48,252 nt of DNA. Origin: a virus. How positions within the stretch are numbered: position 1 is the first letter of the stretch; the number at the start of each line of letters is the position of its first letter. The position numbers and the translations under genes were made by a program. The notes beneath the pieces were generated by a model that saw only the letters and a program-made list of their open reading frames with translations, was not told the origin of the DNA and made no database searches. The stretch lies in IMG/VR virus record IMGVR_UViG_3300020419_001295, positions 1 to 48,252 of that record. One strand, given 5' to 3'. This document shows, piece by piece, positions 8,260-30,707 of this stretch.

Positions 8260-8786
8260 ATTTTTTGCCTCTTTGCTATTGACCAAGTCGATCCAAGCAC
8301 CTCCGATACTGCTCTTCTAACCTGGGCTTGATTTATGTCATGTCCTAATAAAAATCCGCCATCTTTAATTTTAGGATACCAGTTTATAATGTCCTCTTTT
8401 ACATCTTCGTATTCATGTCCTGCATCTATAAATGCAAAATCTAAAGAAGCATCTTCAACAAACTTTGTTGCATAACTTGTAAAATGTCTGTATAAAACCA
8501 AACGAGGATGTACTTCTCTTTGGTATTTTAAAAGGTTTTGATAAAACTTATAGTTAACACTAGATGTATCATTTTCTAAATCTTCACTTTTAGTTTCATT
8601 AAATCTTACAGATTTTTCTGACCATATGTCTACACCTATCATTTTCAAGTGAGGAACATTATCTAATAGATATTTTAGATTGACACCTTTTTGTACACCT
8701 AGTTCTGCACCATGTACTAATCCGTGCTTAAGAATAAACTTTACTAGCCAATCACCTTTTCCTTTGTCTGGTGGTAATTTAGTCAT
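8241..8786 (-). CDS. Class I SAM-dependent methyltransferase (181 aa)
   Basis: The motif AELGVQKGVNLKYLL is the glycine-containing SAM-binding loop, MIGVDIWSE supplies the acidic residue that holds the ribose, and FAFIDAGHEYEDVKEDI with DGGFLLGHDI match the methyltransferase_24 type often linked to glycan or lipid modification. The target is unknown. The start is coupled to the ClpP stop, and the gene sits between ClpP and the PsiE-like protein. Confidence 0.78.
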   Translation of the reverse strand: MTKLPPDKGKGDWLVKFILKHGLVHGAELGVQKGVNLKYLLDNVPHLKMIGVDIWSEKSVRFNETKSEDLENDTSSVNYKFYQNLLKYQREVHPRLVLYRHFTSYATKFVEDASLDFAFIDAGHEYEDVKEDIINWYPKIKDGGFLLGHDINQAQVRRAVSEVLGSTWSIAKRQKIWYVKR

Positions 8787-9370
8787 TATTTTTTCTCTGC
8801 GATAAAGTCAGCTAATCCATAATCAATGGATTCTTTTGCACTCATAAAGTAATCACGATCCATATCCTTCGCAATTCTATCTCTGTCAAGTCCAGTGTGT
8901 TTGACGTATATATCTGTCAGTGTTTCTTTCCAATATTGCAATTCTCTATATCTAATCTCTACATCACTTGCTTGACCTGACGCACCACCACTAGGTTGAT
9001 GAATCATGTGCCTAGCATGTGGGAGTATGGCTCTTTTACCTTTTTCACCTGCCATTGCTAAGAAACTACCCATACTAGCGGCAATCCCCATTACTGTTGT
9101 GTGTACAGGAGATTTAATAAACTGCATCGTATCGTAAATGCTCATACCGGCTGTAACACTACCGCCTGGCGAATTAATATAAAAATTAATTGGCTTTCCT
9201 GTATTTGTAGATTCAAGGAAAAGCATCTGTGCAACAATTAAACTTGCACTTGTACTATTCACATCAGTGTCTAGCATTATAATTCTATCTTTCAAAAGTC
9301 TGCTATAGATATCATAGCTTCTTTCACCTCTTGATTCTTTTTCTATTACTACTGGTACTAAATTAGGCAT
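8786..9370 (-). CDS. clpP: ClpP-type serine protease subunit (194 aa)
   Basis: This is the proteolytic barrel subunit of Clp proteases. The catalytic triad is intact: Ser99 in [10 protein letters not shown], His124 in HMIHQPSGG and Asp172 in [10 protein letters not shown]. The oxyanion-hole loop [10 protein letters not shown] is also present. The length matches bacterial ClpP without a long propeptide. No Clp ATPase is encoded here, so it must use the host ClpX or ClpA. Together with ClpS (18131), Hsp20 and the tmRNA it forms a proteostasis set. The start overlaps the upstream gene by 8 bases. Confidence 0.95.
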
Positions 9371-16747: not shown

Positions 16748-16828
16748 ATGTATTACCTATTTGGAATAATGATTGGAATTATATTCGTAGCTATGATAGG
16801 TCTTGCAATAATGCAAGGCCTTAGCTAA
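16748..16828 (+). CDS. Membrane micro-protein (26 aa)
   Basis: The frame MYYLFGIMIGIIFVAMIG continues to LAIMQGLS and starts immediately after the stop of the coiled-coil gene (TAG then ATG), suggesting re-initiation. It is a single hydrophobic helix and overlaps the convergent bilin-reductase gene by 8 bases. Without homology it remains tentative. Confidence 0.4.
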   Translation: MYYLFGIMIGIIFVAMIGLAIMQGLS

Positions 16829-17507
16829 TCTTAGGAAACAACATATCCGTACAAAAATTATCTACGTCTGCTTCGTCTAATCCTAGCGACTTCATCACTC
16901 TTGGTGTATGTGGATTTTGTTGTTGGTTTTCACAATAATAGTTTTGACTTGCAATAGTTAACTCTCTATCGCCTTCACCAGTGTATTCGCCAATAGTATC
17001 AAGATACGTATGAAGATTGTCCAGTGCCATTTGAATGATAACGTCAGCTTCATCTTCTTTAACATTACTAGCGGCAATCATGCTAGGAGTAAAGATGTTT
17101 TGTGCCCACTGTGGCAACTCTCGTACTTTTTCCGGAATAAAATCTTTAACAGTATCCTGATACCATTGAACCATTGGATGATCTTCACCACCCGAACTTG
17201 CTGAAAAATCATGAAATGCACCTGTCATTTTATTCTTGCCAGCAATCACGTCAAAGCCATATATCGGTCCGTTATTATTAAGTTGGGGGAATACACAAAC
17301 ATGCATCATCCAAAGACCTTTGGTCTTTCTAGCATCTACAACATCAATGTGAGCTCTTCTCACATCATCGTTTTTCCAAACCCTGTTTATCCAGCCACCG
17401 TCGGCTTGATTAAAATGCTCCATTCCTGGCTCATTTATTTCAGTTCCGTGGTGCTCAAATATTTGGATAATCTGGTCTTGGCACTTTACCAGCTGGTCCC
17501 AAATCAT
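16821..17507 (-). CDS. pcyX: Ferredoxin-dependent bilin reductase, PcyX/PebS/PcyA family (228 aa)
   Basis: Family signatures are unmistakable: VRRAHIDVVDARKTKGLWMM, HVCVFPQLNNNGPIYGFDVI, AGKNKMTGAFHDFSAS, and the C-terminal YYCENQQQNPHTPRVMKSLG followed by LDEADVDNFCTDMLFPK. The catalytic Asp of the family lies in IYGFDVIAG, a His is in MMHVCVFP, and the position of PcyA Glu76 appears to be Asp (AHIDVV). The enzyme reduces biliverdin with ferredoxin electrons to a bilin such as phycoerythrobilin. Phage members called PcyX are reported from marine metagenomes. It sits 10 bases after the heme oxygenase gene, its natural supplier. Confidence 0.9.
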   Translation of the reverse strand: MIWDQLVKCQDQIIQIFEHHGTEINEPGMEHFNQADGGWINRVWKNDDVRRAHIDVVDARKTKGLWMMHVCVFPQLNNNGPIYGFDVIAGKNKMTGAFHDFSASSGGEDHPMVQWYQDTVKDFIPEKVRELPQWAQNIFTPSMIAASNVKEDEADVIIQMALDNLHTYLDTIGEYTGEGDRELTIASQNYYCENQQQNPHTPRVMKSLGLDEADVDNFCTDMLFPKIS

Positions 17508-17517
17508 AATAGACCTA

Positions 17518-18087
17518 TTAAGCTAATTGTTCGTAAATTTTTTGTCTGTATCCGTATGCAATGTTACATTCGATTGAATCTGCATCACTTACTCTAGCAT
17601 CTAGTAAGTTCTTCATTTCTTCTTTCGATGTAGTCATATCTGCAAACTGGTACATTTTTCCACTACCTGGAACTTTATCAGCATACTTGCCTTCTAAGTC
17701 TCCCATATGGTTTGCATATACGTGGGCCATAAGCTTCTGCTTATCATGTTGAATACTTTTAATAATATGATTAATATATTCATCAATTGCCGCCACTGTT
17801 GCTGGAGGATTAGATTCGTCGCCGCCTAGTTCTTTGAAATCTTCTAAGATATCGCTGGCCTGCATTAAACCATCTAGTGGTAAATCATTACCTGGCATTT
17901 GTGGATCCATTGGTGCAAAACAACCCATGCTTAATGCAACATCTTCCATGATGTCATATAGCATGTACATGTTCCATAAGTATTTAAGATACTTGTCGTT
18001 GCTTATTTTACCTGCATTCATTTCAACCGCGAAAGATGTGCTTTCAGCATTGGCTTGCGATGCAGAAGTTAAACTTTGTAAGCTCAT
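17518..18087 (-). CDS. Heme oxygenase (189 aa), divergent heme pocket
   Basis: The fold and order match heme oxygenase: an N-terminal helix (SLTSASQANAESTSFAVEMN), NDKYLKYLWNMYMLYDIMED, and the distal-helix region KLMAHVYANHMGDLEGKYAD, equivalent to the GDLSGG motif. The enzyme opens heme to biliverdin, iron and CO. Aligned by eye with the usual TKxxHxxAExxxF motif, the proximal heme-ligating His is a Gln (SASQANAE), and GDLSGG reads GDLEGK. The start at 18087 has AAGGAGT, and a TAAATA box at 18123-18128 suggests late expression. The bilin reductase follows in the same operon. Confidence 0.8.
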   Translation of the reverse strand: MSLQSLTSASQANAESTSFAVEMNAGKISNDKYLKYLWNMYMLYDIMEDVALSMGCFAPMDPQMPGNDLPLDGLMQASDILEDFKELGGDESNPPATVAAIDEYINHIIKSIQHDKQKLMAHVYANHMGDLEGKYADKVPGSGKMYQFADMTTSKEEMKNLLDARVSDADSIECNIAYGYRQKIYEQLA

Positions 18088-18130: not shown

Positions 18131-18448
18131 CTATTCTTTTTCTATTTGTATCTGTAAAGGAAAGCCATTAGCTCTAGCTAATTTTGTTGCTTCTAGAGAC
18201 CTTTGTTCAGCTATTTCAAAGCTATATAACCCAACAATAGCAGTGCCATCTTTGTGTATTTTCATTGTTAATTCTTGGGCTGTCTTCTCAGAATGTTTAA
18301 AAACTTGAACTAAGATTTCTACAACAAAGTCCATAGGTGTTGCGTCATCATTAAGGAAGATAACCTTGTACTTACCAGGTTCTTGAACAAAATCCTTTAT
18401 CTGTTCATTTACTTTTATATCTGTATCTAATTCAACTGTTACTGTCAT
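18131..18448 (-). CDS. clpS: ClpS adaptor protein (105 aa)
   Basis: ClpS binds proteins with destabilising N-termini and delivers them to ClpA-ClpP. The core is typical: GKYKVIFLNDDATPMDFVVE (NDD-TPM signature), ILVQVFKHSEKTAQELTMKI, HKDGTAIVGLYSFEIAE and QRSLEATKLARANGFPLQIQ. The N-terminal tail is short, as in other ClpS. The ATG at 18448 follows GGAG by 5 bases. It lies between Hsp20 and heme oxygenase and partners conceptually with the ClpP at 8786. Confidence 0.93.
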   Translation of the reverse strand: MTVTVELDTDIKVNEQIKDFVQEPGKYKVIFLNDDATPMDFVVEILVQVFKHSEKTAQELTMKIHKDGTAIVGLYSFEIAEQRSLEATKLARANGFPLQIQIEKE

Positions 18449-18465
18449 AATCACTCCATAGTGTC

Positions 18466-18486
18466 TAGGGGGTGAATCACCCCCTA
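18466..18486 (-). other. Strong hairpin between hsp20 and clpS
   Basis: TAGGGGGTG, loop of 3, CACCCCCTA: a perfect 9-bp, GC-rich stem in the 51-base gap. No T-run follows it on the minus strand, so it is more likely an mRNA processing or stability element that lets hsp20 and clpS accumulate to different levels than a terminator. Confidence 0.6.
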
Positions 18487-18499
18487 AACGTTTCCACTG

Positions 18500-18940
18500 T
18501 TACTCAGCCTCAACAATTTTAATTGTTTTAGGCTTTAGTTCTTCTGGAACTTCTCTTTCTAGATGTAGGTTCAACATACCTTTTTCTAGTTTAGCTGTCT
18601 TTACATCAACATGTTCTGCTAATGTAAACTGTCTGCTAAAGTTACGCCCAGCGATACCTCTGTGAACATAATTCACTTCATCAGCACCTTTAGGTTGAGT
18701 TCCTTCGATTGTAAGAATATTTTTATCCTTTTCAATCTTAAGATTATCCATACCAAAGCCAGCAACTGCGATTGAAATCATAAATTCATCTTCGCTGATC
18801 TTAGCTATATTGTATGGTGGATATCCACCCGATCTATCTGTACTGTTTTCAAATACTCTGTCCATTTCGTCGAACAGGCTTTCGAAGCCAATCATAGATC
18901 TGTGAAAAGTGGGAAGGTTTAGTGTAGTTACTCTTGTCAT
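18500..18940 (-). CDS. Small heat-shock protein, Hsp20/IbpA type (146 aa)
   Basis: The alpha-crystallin domain runs from about residue 38 to 130 (PPYNIAKISEDEFMISIAVA, GFGMDNLKIEKDKNILTIEG, YVHRGIAGRNFSRQFTLAEH, AKLEKGMLNLHLEREVPEEL), followed by a short tail with the KTIKIVE motif resembling the IxI anchor. It holds unfolding proteins in a refoldable state. T4-like marine phages commonly carry it. The start has GGAG (AAGGAGAAAACA). It is in the ClpS operon, under the promoter at 19047-19075. Confidence 0.93.
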   Translation of the reverse strand: MTRVTTLNLPTFHRSMIGFESLFDEMDRVFENSTDRSGGYPPYNIAKISEDEFMISIAVAGFGMDNLKIEKDKNILTIEGTQPKGADEVNYVHRGIAGRNFSRQFTLAEHVDVKTAKLEKGMLNLHLEREVPEELKPKTIKIVEAE

Positions 18941-28059: not shown

Positions 28060-28193
28060 TGAGTTTGGGAATAAGAAAAGTTATTGTCCGTTTAAGAATG
28101 TGGTATGCAGATATTCGTGGCCATCACGGTAAGCGATGGGATTACGAACCTTCTGAACACTACATGGGAATGGGCAAAAAGAAATCAAGATAA
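28059..28193 (+). CDS. Small basic protein (44 aa)
   Basis: Frame MSLGIRKVIVRLRMWYADIR continues with GHHGKRWDYEPSEHYMGMGK and KKSR. Its start overlaps the preceding stop (TAATG) and it converges with hemE, overlapping by 9 bases. Too short for a family assignment. Confidence 0.5.
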   Translation: MSLGIRKVIVRLRMWYADIRGHHGKRWDYEPSEHYMGMGKKKSR

Positions 28194-29159
28194 TCTATTA
28201 CGGACAGTTTCAATAAACAAATGAACATGTTCTTCAGGAGTAGTCTTATCTATTCCATGACCCAAACCGCAAACCCAACCAGTTGTATCCGACTTGTTAA
28301 TATCGTCACAATATTTTTCTATTTCATACATAAACTTGTGCTTAGATAAAAGCATTTTGTTTTCGTCAAAGTTGCCTTGAACAAACCCTTTGTCAAATGT
28401 TTTAAATGCATCTGATATATCTATTTTACTGTCTACGCCTATGCCACCCCAGTCTCCTTCTACTACTTTACCAATGCACTTTCTGGGTAAGTTCTTACTA
28501 TAGTAAGCTGTTTGTGGCATGGCCATTGCCATTAGTAAAGGAGAATACTTTTCATTAAAGAACTTAGCTGACATATTTTGTAATCCACTATCAAAGATCA
28601 TTACAACTTCCGCACCTGCATCTAACTGCATTCTAATATTTCTTACTAGCAAAGGTATTAATATAGTTTTCATATAGTCTAACTTAAATTGATCTGTTGC
28701 TCTTGTATCTCCACAAGCATAATTCATTAAAGTCCATGGGCCTCCAACAAATCCAATTAAACTTTTATCCTTAGGCAACATGGCTCTAGTTGTTAGCACT
28801 GCTTCTCTTTGAAATGATAAAAAAGATAATGCGTCAGAAATATTACTATGTTCTTCTGCGTTATCTATTGTAAGATTATGTCCAAACTTGGGACCAGGAT
28901 TAAATTCTAAAGGCAATCCTAATCCTTCTAACGGCCAAAGTATATCTGAAAACAAAATTGAAACATCGTAATCAAATTCTCTTATTGGTCCTAATGCTAC
29001 TTCTCCTGCTAAGTCAGGTTGCTTACACAACTCTTCAAATGTGTAAGTTTCTTTTAATTTTCTATAATGAGAATGATATCTTCCTGCTTGTCGCATAAAC
29101 CATATTGGTGGGACATTCTGTGCAACTCTATTACGTGCATTAATAAATTTTTTATTCAC
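28185..29159 (-). CDS. hemE: Uroporphyrinogen decarboxylase (324 aa)
   Basis: HemE removes four carboxylates from uroporphyrinogen III to give coproporphyrinogen III. The invariant arginines lie in PPIWFMRQAGRYHSHYRKLK, the catalytic Asp in SILFSDILWPLEGLG, and the C-terminal His in GWVCGLGHGIDKTTPEEHV. FVGGPWTLMNYACGD is also typical. It is slightly shorter than bacterial HemE (about 340-355 residues). The GTG start overlaps the hemC stop as GTGA. A porphyrin gene in a phage is unusual; see the heme oxygenase and bilin reductase at 16821-18087. Confidence 0.94.
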   Translation of the reverse strand: MNKKFINARNRVAQNVPPIWFMRQAGRYHSHYRKLKETYTFEELCKQPDLAGEVALGPIREFDYDVSILFSDILWPLEGLGLPLEFNPGPKFGHNLTIDNAEEHSNISDALSFLSFQREAVLTTRAMLPKDKSLIGFVGGPWTLMNYACGDTRATDQFKLDYMKTILIPLLVRNIRMQLDAGAEVVMIFDSGLQNMSAKFFNEKYSPLLMAMAMPQTAYYSKNLPRKCIGKVVEGDWGGIGVDSKIDISDAFKTFDKGFVQGNFDENKMLLSKHKFMYEIEKYCDDINKSDTTGWVCGLGHGIDKTTPEEHVHLFIETVRNRLS

Positions 29160-29986
29160 TTTATATTTTTTCCTACTTCCTCACCTAATAACTTATACTC
29201 TAATAACTTACTGGTTGACTCGTAATGTTTTCCTGTATTATAATTTATCGCTTTTAAATTTATACAATCTCCAACTAGACTTGAAACAGCACCTACGGCA
29301 GTATGGCAATCGCCATCTATTTCCTGTAACATAGCTCTTTCAGCCATTACAGAGTAGTATGTATTCCAGTGATTATTTAGTTTAGCTACATCACTATGAG
29401 AAGAACCTTTTCTAGTTTGAACTGCTATAACTCCTTGTCCAACACAAGGAAGCATTTTACTGAAAGGAAATATTTTTTTGATCTTATGTTCTAAGCCTAA
29501 GGCTTCAAGCCCTGCTACTGCTAGGATAATAGCATCATATTGGCCTTCTTCTAACTTCTTAATCCTAGTATCTATATTGCCTCTTATAGGCATGACATCA
29601 AACTCTACATTAAAATTTTCTTTGAGTTGTGCAACACGTCTAGGTGATCCTGTACCTACTTTCGCATGCGGAAACAGTGTCCCTATGTAACAATCTCTAG
29701 GATCGTTTCTTTTTAATACAGCGGAAATTTCTAAACTATCATCCATTACTGCCGGTAAGTCCTTAAAAGAATGCACTGCTACATCTATCTTTTTATCTAC
29801 CAATTGTTGTTCGATAGCAGAAACAAACACACCTTTGCCTCCAATATCTTGGATGCTCTTGTTTTCGAATATGTCGCCGTCTGTTTTAATTTTTACAAGG
29901 TTGGTTTGAAAACTTTTGAAACACTGTGCTTCTACTCTCTTAGCATAATCTATTGCTAGTTTACTACCTCTCACGCCAATGTTCAT
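29156..29986 (-). CDS. hemC: Hydroxymethylbilane synthase / porphobilinogen deaminase (276 aa)
   Basis: HemC joins four porphobilinogens into hydroxymethylbilane. The sequence has the N-terminal IGVRGSKLAIDYAKRVEAQ, the catalytic Asp in DVAVHSFKDLPAVM, the Arg-rich substrate loops GTGSPRRVAQLKENF and PIRGNIDTRIKKLEEG, and the dipyrromethane cofactor Cys in EIDGDCHTAVGAV. It is shorter than most (about 310), lacking part of the C-terminus. The ATG at 29986 follows GGAGG by 5 bases; an upstream TTG is unlikely. It lies 10 bases after the tmRNA terminator with no promoter of its own. Confidence 0.93.
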   Translation of the reverse strand: MNIGVRGSKLAIDYAKRVEAQCFKSFQTNLVKIKTDGDIFENKSIQDIGGKGVFVSAIEQQLVDKKIDVAVHSFKDLPAVMDDSLEISAVLKRNDPRDCYIGTLFPHAKVGTGSPRRVAQLKENFNVEFDVMPIRGNIDTRIKKLEEGQYDAIILAVAGLEALGLEHKIKKIFPFSKMLPCVGQGVIAVQTRKGSSHSDVAKLNNHWNTYYSVMAERAMLQEIDGDCHTAVGAVSSLVGDCINLKAINYNTGKHYESTSKLLEYKLLGEEVGKNIK

Positions 29987-29996
29987 ATGAGCCTCC

Positions 29997-30020
29997 AAAA
30001 AAATGCAACTTTTCTGTTGC
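29997..30020 (-). terminator. Intrinsic terminator after the tmRNA gene
   Basis: The minus strand reads GCAAC, loop AGAAAA, GTTGC, then A and seven Ts (30003-29997). The T-run ends directly before the GGAGG site of hemC. The tmRNA transcript should mostly stop here, with read-through feeding hemC and hemE. Confidence 0.85.
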
Positions 30021-30321
30021 TAGGTAAGTTGCCAACCCCGAGCAATTAAGCCGCTAAGGCGTAATCCTCATTTACGTAGTTCTTTAGTGAACCGAAGTTT
30101 ACAAAAGAAAATACGTTTGATACATTATCGTTTGCATCTATAACGTGTCTTCGCGTTAACCGAGCTTAGATCCGGACAACTCCACGAACTCTATTGACTG
30201 CCAGTCGATCCTATTTCAGGCCCATCATAAACACACTTCCGTTATCAAAATGTGTTTATGGTGGACCTGCTGGGTACTGCCCCCAGGTCCTGTTCAGCGT
30301 TTGAATTGCTTCAACGTTGCA
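30021..30321 (-). ncRNA. ssrA: Two-piece (circularly permuted) tmRNA of alphaproteobacterial type
   Basis: Gene order is acceptor piece then coding piece. The acceptor piece ends with a T-arm (CTGGG, loop GGCAGTA, CCCAG; 30286-30270), then CAGGTCC, A and an encoded CCA (30261-30259). A 35-base spacer follows, whose arms CATAAACACA and TGTGTTTATG pair. The coding piece starts GGGCCTG (30223-30217), which pairs in all 7 positions (one G-U) with CAGGTCC, then ATAGGATCGACTGG, a D-arm-like element. The tag frame starts at 30135: ANDNVSNV to NEDYALAA then TAA (30048-30046), 29 residues, preceded by ATAGATGCAAACGAT, matching the usual tmRNA resume context. tmRNA with SmpB rescues stalled ribosomes and marks the product for ClpXP. 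Confidence 0.9.
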
Positions 30322-30327
30322 AGTATA

Positions 30328-30356
30328 TTTATAACACGTTAAGTAAGGTTTGTCAA
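30328..30356 (-). promoter_or_regulatory. Sigma70-type promoter TTGACA-17-TATAAA for the tmRNA
   Basis: Perfect TTGACA (30356-30351), a 17-base spacer and TATAAA (30333-30328) on the minus strand. The predicted start is about 30321, the 5' end of the acceptor piece. The -35 lies inside the coding end of the DUF3307 gene. Confidence 0.85.
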
Positions 30357-30707
30357 GAAAAGATAATACAACATATAACAAGAATAATGGGCTATTTGGT
30401 CTACGCCCTGTATACACCAAAATAGTTTACTTTCGTATACAACTTTGTACTTTCTAACTAATTTTGTTTTTGTAAAATCTATAATAAAATGTAATACAAA
30501 ATCAACTAGGCCAACTGCTAATGCCCATTTTATCTCTGTAAAGAATATACAAACCAACACTGTGCATACAGCATGATCTAGTGCATGTTTGTATCCTTTT
30601 GTATCTTTTAAATTTGCTTTGTCTCCGGTAGTGAGACGGCTTTGCAAGATTAGATCTGCGATTGCGTGTTTAACGACGAGGAAGAAAAGAAGCCAACCTG
30701 TTTCCAT
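30339..30707 (-). CDS. DUF3307-like membrane protein (122 aa)
   Basis: Three to four hydrophobic helices carry conserved polar residues: VVKHAIADLILQSRLTTGDK, KGYKHALDHAVCTVLVCIFF, VDFVLHFIIDFTKTKLVRKY and SKLFWCIQGVDQIAHYSCYM. The His, Asp and Gln pattern within helices is typical of DUF3307, a family of unknown role in bacteria and phages. Its start lies inside the end of a 57-residue gene, and its end contains the tmRNA -35 element. Confidence 0.82.
   Translation of the reverse strand: METGWLLFFLVVKHAIADLILQSRLTTGDKANLKDTKGYKHALDHAVCTVLVCIFFTEIKWALAVGLVDFVLHFIIDFTKTKLVRKYKVVYESKLFWCIQGVDQIAHYSCYMLYYLFLTNLT

Follow-up and report, generated by a model that had tools for sequence, protein, structure and literature searches.

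The window analysed here, a 48,252-nucleotide stretch of marine phage DNA that makes up IMG/VR virus record IMGVR_UViG_3300020419_001295, carries on its minus strand what is very probably a working phage-encoded ssrA gene of the permuted alpha type, with a tag that is split by an in-frame hairpin. The anatomy of the gene, its conservation, the covariation within it and the constraint on its codons could be read directly. A first-pass annotation, made from the letters alone, had placed a two-piece tmRNA with a 29-residue tag at positions 30021-30321. Indeed, the alpha_tmRNA model RF01849 matched the locus over its full length (model positions 1-355 of 355) with 103.4 bits, at a gathering cut-off of 50 and an E-value of 3e-27, and the tmRNA_permuted model RF04321 matched the same locus with 90.7 bits (cut-off 47; model positions 1-213 of 213). 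Independently, ARAGORN called a permuted tmRNA with the tag ANDNVSNVFSFVNFGSLKNYVNEDYALAA. The span proposed at first covers the mature RNA but leaves out the promoter and the terminator, both of which had been noticed and are present (Table 1). At the gathering threshold, an Rfam scan of the window returned only two tRNAs besides the tmRNA, and no riboswitch.

The gene is arranged in permuted order, with the CCA-ended acceptor strand located upstream of its own 5′ partner. From 5′ to 3′, it consists of the promoter, the P2 strand, the T-arm, CAGGUCC-A-CCA, the spacer, GGGCCUG AAAUAGGAUCGAC, the P2 return with PK1, the pre-resume stem, the tag and the terminator. The seven-pair acceptor stem, the T-arm and the structured spacer recognised by the first-pass annotation were all recovered: GGGCCTG (30223-30217) pairs at 7/7 positions, including G3-U70, with CAGGTCC (30269-30263), which is followed by A73 and an encoded CCA, and the spacer is a 35-nt hairpin. 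The G3-U70 pair is an alanine identity element, and relatives show the same acceptor pairing, G3-U70 included, despite other stem sequences. The precursor fold was far below that of shuffled sequences (z -5.1; 0/100 shuffles). Cutting of the precursor into two RNAs, charging with alanine and binding of SmpB are predicted, and the covarying stem of the intervening segment is consistent with this. The promoter hexamers, their spacing and their place were kept in most of the relatives compared, with a changed spacer sequence; a promoter scan that requires T at the last -10 position did not call the TATAAA promoter. The T-run of the terminator is missing in some relatives, and in the window the terminator is directly followed by the ribosome-binding site of hemC. 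The phage tmRNAs scored about 100 bits, as compared to 143-313 bits for nearly all sampled host tmRNAs, and are therefore divergent.

Table 1. Positions of the tmRNA gene, its parts and other genes of the window discussed in the text.
Feature	Position	Strand	Basis
Full-length alpha_tmRNA match	30002..30360	-	RF01849
Sigma70-type promoter: TTGACA (30356-30351), 17-nt spacer, TATAAA (30333-30328)	30328..30356	-	read directly
First piece: P2 strand, T-arm, acceptor 3′ strand CAGGTCC, A73, CCA (30261-30259)	30259..30320	-	Rfam alignment, pairing check
T-arm CTGGG-GGCAGTA-CCCAG	30270..30286	-	
Intervening segment, 35 nt: hairpin TAAACACA...TGTGTTTA and linker TGAT	30224..30258	-	closing stem covaries in phage segments
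Second piece: acceptor 5′ strand GGGCCTG, GAAATAGGATCGAC, PK1, pre-resume stem (30158-30141), tag frame	30046..30223	-	RF01849 and RF04321 alignments
Tag frame: resume codon GCA (30135-30133), 29 codons, stop TAA (30048-30046)	30046..30135	-	ARAGORN; frame kept in 34 distinct phage sequences
In-frame stem-loop ACGTA...TTCG (30096-30093)...TACGT	30074..30116	-	folding and covariation
Terminator hairpin GCAACAGAAAAGTTGC, then T-run	30005..30020	-	terminator scan and sequence
Phage ClpP, 194 aa, possible partner degrading tagged proteins	8786..9370	-	Pfam CLP_protease, E 1.1e-77
Phage ClpS adaptor, 107 aa, which may modify Clp proteolysis	18131..18454	-	Pfam ClpS, E 1.5e-28
ClpP, ClpS and Hsp20	8786..9370 and 18131..18940	-	
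Bilin reductase, heme oxygenase, HemE and HemC	16821..18087 and 28185..29989	-	

A tmRNA supplied by the phage itself is supported by the origin of the window as a virus record and by a conserved phage synteny. The window encodes ribonucleotide reductase, DNA ligase, ClpP, ClpS, Hsp20 and IMP-dehydrogenase-type, heme-oxygenase and bilin-reductase proteins. Furthermore, the same tmRNA and tag family was present in more than 60 related viral contigs, in which both the acceptor pairing and the tag frame were conserved. Of the two outcomes that the first-pass annotation had named as refuting it, a lack of significant alpha-tmRNA matches and a lack of conserved pairing and frame in relatives, neither was obtained. 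In scans of viral contigs, the tag end VNED[FY]ALAA was found in at least 64 contigs and long ANDN...ALAA frames likewise in at least 64, the two sets being largely overlapping. Since the loci were found by sequence patterns and IMG/VR contigs are redundant, none of these frequencies can be taken as an estimate for the population. When 75 long-tag contigs were examined, the gene order in most of them was nrdA-nrdB-grx-ORF-cspA-(DUF3307)-tmRNA, with CspA in 66 and NrdB in 60 of them, while hemC-hemE directly after the tmRNA was restricted to the sub-clade of the window. The tag end was found in 0/385 alphaproteobacterial genomes, and the 29-residue tag appears to be phage-specific as far as sampled. 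Neither BLASTN of the tmRNA nor tBLASTN of one long tag gave a match among cultured phages. The best NrdB matches among cultured phages were to cyanophages (63%) and Pelagibacter phage Mosig (61.5%); HemC showed about 40% identity to alphaproteobacteria in general, which is not decisive for the host. In an NrdB tree, the long-tag phages formed two main groups that were separated by phages with tags of 9-13 and of 24 residues, which means that the tag insert repeatedly arose or disappeared, or that it moved.

The tag had been described as two to three times longer than usual alphaproteobacterial tags and as ending in TAA, and the frame was confirmed. As for its length, the statement holds against the median of 12 residues in sampled alphaproteobacterial hosts (ARAGORN, n=73), where 63/73 tags have 9-15 residues. 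Yet five of the 73 host tags have 25-32 residues, so a tag of 29 is unusual but not unparalleled: it lies outside the usual length of about 9-15 residues in the lineage, which is not a length that defines the family. Predicted tags of 29-32 residues, several of them rich in Arg and Lys, occur in the host alphaproteobacteria L295, L299, L298, L284 and L278, and some of the 25-32-residue host tags are very basic and come from small genomes. When 34 distinct phage tags were aligned, an ANDN-type head was followed by a variable bridge, the motif [ST]-[FY]-[VA]-[DNS]-F-[GS], a free stretch and, mostly, the end VNED[FY]ALAA. The extra 15-16 codons correspond to a stem-loop whose cap is UUCG, UUUU or UUUG. 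The tag is a canonical ANDN...EDYALAA tag of about 13-14 residues that is split by a translated hairpin of 43 nt. A tmRNA tag with a translated hairpin in it is not known to us from any report, and a limited literature search, which is weak evidence, found none.

Taken by itself, the tag hairpin of the window was unexceptional when compared with shuffled sequences (z -0.97), so the case for it rests on the relatives. In the UUCG group, to which the window belongs, the covariation score was 0.318 versus 0.134 +/- 0.028 after shuffling (0/500), and 89% of cells were paired versus 32-41% when the partners were slid; the shuffles ignore relatedness, whereas the slid-partner controls account for it. 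The UUUU group scored 0.380 versus 0.176 in shuffles (0/500), and the fold was less clear in a 31-residue subtype (AKATINNGEFTFVNFGALNDFAVNEDFALAA). At the codon level, the 5′ arm of the hairpin was constrained (pN 0.14-0.20 versus pS 0.54), with conservation of the peptide [ST]FV[DN]F, and the 3′ arm was free (pN 0.52, pS 0.65). The Phe and Val codons vary at their third positions, Val being found in all four codons, and the tag end was constrained (pN 0.03-0.06 versus pS 0.37-0.42). Because the two arms differ, which speaks against pure selection on RNA, and pairing is kept, which speaks against pure selection on the peptide, both RNA pairing and peptide constraints seem to act on the hairpin. 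The first-pass annotation had suggested that the hydrophobic middle of the tag could do more than mark proteins for degradation. The hydrophobic middle is, however, the 5′ arm of the in-frame RNA stem-loop, so its hydrophobicity does not by itself indicate a peptide function. Further long tags from phages (ANDNVAQPKFMKK..., ANDNAFDFTAMSF..., AN[ED]N[SY][FY]AMTV..., ANENFAPEAFTSL...) are unrelated in sequence and showed strong intra-tag folds, as judged from single-sequence folding. Unrelated phage tags of 24-31 residues with strongly folding tag frames lie at L178, L179, L184, L188 and L040, L184 and L188 being one-piece tmRNAs.

Conceivably, the extra residues could have been selected as a peptide, [ST]FV[DN]F[GS] acting on a host protease, adaptor or membrane and the RNA hairpin being a by-product. 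The constrained 5′ arm next to a free 3′ arm and the varying third positions of the Phe and Val codons would fit this idea. However, stem pairing is kept by changes on both sides, the groups differ in their loops and stems, and strong folding within the tag is also seen in unrelated long phage tags whose peptides differ; we regard a selected peptide with a by-product hairpin as rather unlikely. Still less probable is a decoy RNA that binds SmpB or alanyl-tRNA synthetase and blocks trans-translation by the host instead of tagging. A tmRNA-like molecule is described as able to inhibit tmRNA, perhaps by SmpB titration (PMC4131195), and the divergence of the phage tmRNAs would be compatible with such a role. 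Nevertheless, the tag frame, the resume region, the stop and the ALAA end are strongly constrained, as the values for the tag end illustrate, and this counts against a decoy because a decoy needs neither a tag frame nor an ALAA end. Finally, it is hardly conceivable that the locus is host DNA, that is, a fragment of a bacterial chromosome or the relic of an attachment site inside a phage contig. While ssrA is a known integration site and HemC and HemE resemble cellular enzymes, the tmRNA gene is complete with its own promoter, its tag end was absent from the 385 alphaproteobacterial genomes, and most of the contigs with this tmRNA and tag family have the same phage neighbours. We discarded host contamination or an ssrA attachment relic on the grounds of this synteny and this absence, and a chance tag on the grounds of conservation in more than 60 contigs.

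For the working permuted ssrA gene, we infer the following course of processing, charging, SmpB use and proteolysis. The tmRNA would be transcribed from its own sigma70-type promoter, the precursor would fold, its spacer hairpin would be excised, and the acceptor stem would keep the two resulting pieces paired. Once charged with alanine through G3-U70, the tmRNA would use host SmpB to rescue ribosomes that have stalled on broken mRNA. The tag would be added to the rescued chain, which would then undergo ClpXP-type destruction, perhaps with the phage ClpP; ALAA-type ends are recognised by ClpX. As no SmpB was found in 14 records (13 phage contigs with such tmRNAs and the phage Melnitz; most of them incomplete), the host SmpB must presumably serve. 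The in-frame hairpin begins 19 nt past the first base of the resume codon, and the stretch of the tag that is threaded first therefore stays single-stranded; owing to these free 19 nt, ribosome loading should precede the encounter with the hairpin. The job that we would assign to the hairpin before any other, although only tentatively, is to hold the exposed coding strand in a compact, nuclease-resistant state while infection proceeds, or else to set the pace of the ribosome. Among related contigs, ClpP was found at full strength in five, and weaker ClpP-like matches in five more. Together, the phage ClpP and ClpS suggest that Clp proteolysis is adjusted by the phage. ClpP, ClpS and Hsp20 beside the tmRNA form a possible protein-turnover set.

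The two-piece tmRNA had been presented as a trait of alphaproteobacteria and a few other lineages. Its alpha type was verified, but a phage two-piece tmRNA is not new, as it was already published with the OM43 myophage Melnitz and related marine phages, where 53 phage cases, mostly aquatic, were counted (PMC9004378). Like the window, Melnitz, a T4-like marine myophage, carries a permuted alpha-type ssrA (106.7 bits to RF01849). However, its tag has 14 residues (ANDNYVPVDYALAA) and no hairpin insertion, as opposed to the 29 residues with an in-frame hairpin in the window, and its ssrA neighbours differ. In addition, ssrA of Melnitz is followed by a glutamine riboswitch (L208 1926-1974), in contrast to the window, where none was detected at the gathering threshold; such a riboswitch beside phage ssrA is common and not defining (PMC9004378). 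The two-piece tmRNAs of alphaproteobacteria (RF01849) share with the window the order of the pieces, the acceptor stem, the T-arm, G3-U70, the resume region GCAAACGA and the segment hairpin. The phage form differs by its divergence and the tag insertion, the alphaproteobacterial hosts having tags with a median of 12 residues and segments of at most 80 nt in 74/77 cases. The tmRNAs of the mycobacteriophages Bxz1, Cali and Wildcat and of Bacillus phage G belong to other lineages and are not known to be of the permuted alpha type. These phages and further mycobacteriophages carry ssrA genes for one-piece tmRNAs, and no long hairpin tag is reported for them in the part of the source available (PMC4131195). 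As a separate observation, bilin reductase, heme oxygenase, HemE and HemC are encoded together in the phage of the window, HemC with only a partial match to its C-terminal domain. Phage heme oxygenase, bilin reductase and AlaS have been described (PMC11480375), and hemC was not found in the text of that paper.

In the window, the 35-nt segment that separates CCA from the 5′ acceptor strand has no ORF; in relatives, this segment measures up to 224 nt. Over 91 distinct phage spacers, its closing stem paired at 8.89 of 10 positions versus 6.59 +/- 0.12 in shuffles, indicating covariation, and phage spacers have a fixed 4-nt linker, mostly UGAU. Among the distinct phage tmRNAs with spacers of at least 108 nt, 38/39 have a reading frame that fills more than 55% of the spacer, usually preceded by a Shine-Dalgarno-like sequence that often lies in the closing stem, on its 5′ strand. 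Twenty-nine of the 38 frames stop inside the spacer, mostly at the linker UGA, and nine run on into the tmRNA. Of 77 host spacers examined as a control, only three were longer than 80 nt and none contained a frame that filled it. The ORF-bearing loci tested with cmscan are tmRNAs. Judged by their substitutions (Table 2), the nested frames are coding and under purifying selection in families with two or more comparable variants. In the close relatives of the window, the segment holds F1 (L155, L171, L092, L133 and L165) or F6 (L132, L137, L141 and L154).

Table 2. Families of reading frames nested in the spacers of sister loci.
Family	Loci	Substitutions
F1	L007, L015, L048, L092, L102, L110, L133, L155, L165, L171	pS 0.42, pN 0.20
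F2	L008, L017, L045, L055, L095, L116, L180, L187, L190, L191, L193	pS 0.54, pN 0.20
F3	L010, L057, L064, L076, L111, L119	
F4	L025, L051	L025/L051: 8 synonymous, 0 nonsynonymous changes
F5	L046, L052	pS 0.44, pN 0.04
F6	L132, L137, L141, L154	
F8, run-on, without stop inside segment	L097, L029, L059, L113	pS 0.69, pN 0.17
Other run-on segment ORFs	L013, L054, L151, L021, L208 (Melnitz)	

F4 matches Pfam DUF6356 (E 5e-12), and an NCBIfam search of the nested ORFs gave no match. The predicted structure of F1 (pLDDT 80) had no significant match in the PDB, the best one (E 0.5) coming from a type I-C CRISPR-Cas3 entry, where it was a chain of 70 residues. Melnitz has F1 as a free-standing gene (MelnitzEXVC044M_85, hypothetical protein; MZ577097.1 45780-45980, corresponding to L316 1481-1681) that ends 3 bp before ssrA and is 70% identical to the ORF nested in the segments of other phages. 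F1 may be a tmRNA-associated protein. By eye, the F2 segments of L045, L055, L116 and L180 may contain, in a different frame, a further short acidic ORF that starts before the membrane-type ORF and overlaps it. No publication on a protein gene inside a tmRNA spacer was found in the literature. We consider it likely that, in marine phages, the genes for permuted tmRNAs are composites that encode protein as well as RNA, in which the excised segment is a cargo site for small genes and the tag frame takes in-frame hairpins, the window representing the hairpin form with an empty segment. Since the run-on frames have no stop inside the segment, an excised run-on segment would be a nonstop mRNA. If the composite reading is true, such nonstop segment mRNAs would be substrates of the tmRNA itself.

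The lineage with a hairpin in the tag, in which RNA pairing and peptide both seem to be constrained, offers a direct handle on the viral reshaping of ribosome rescue and proteolysis. The sister loci, where a protein gene lies within the portion of an RNA gene that is cut out, would link three processes on a single transcript, namely RNA processing, translation and the rescue of ribosomes.
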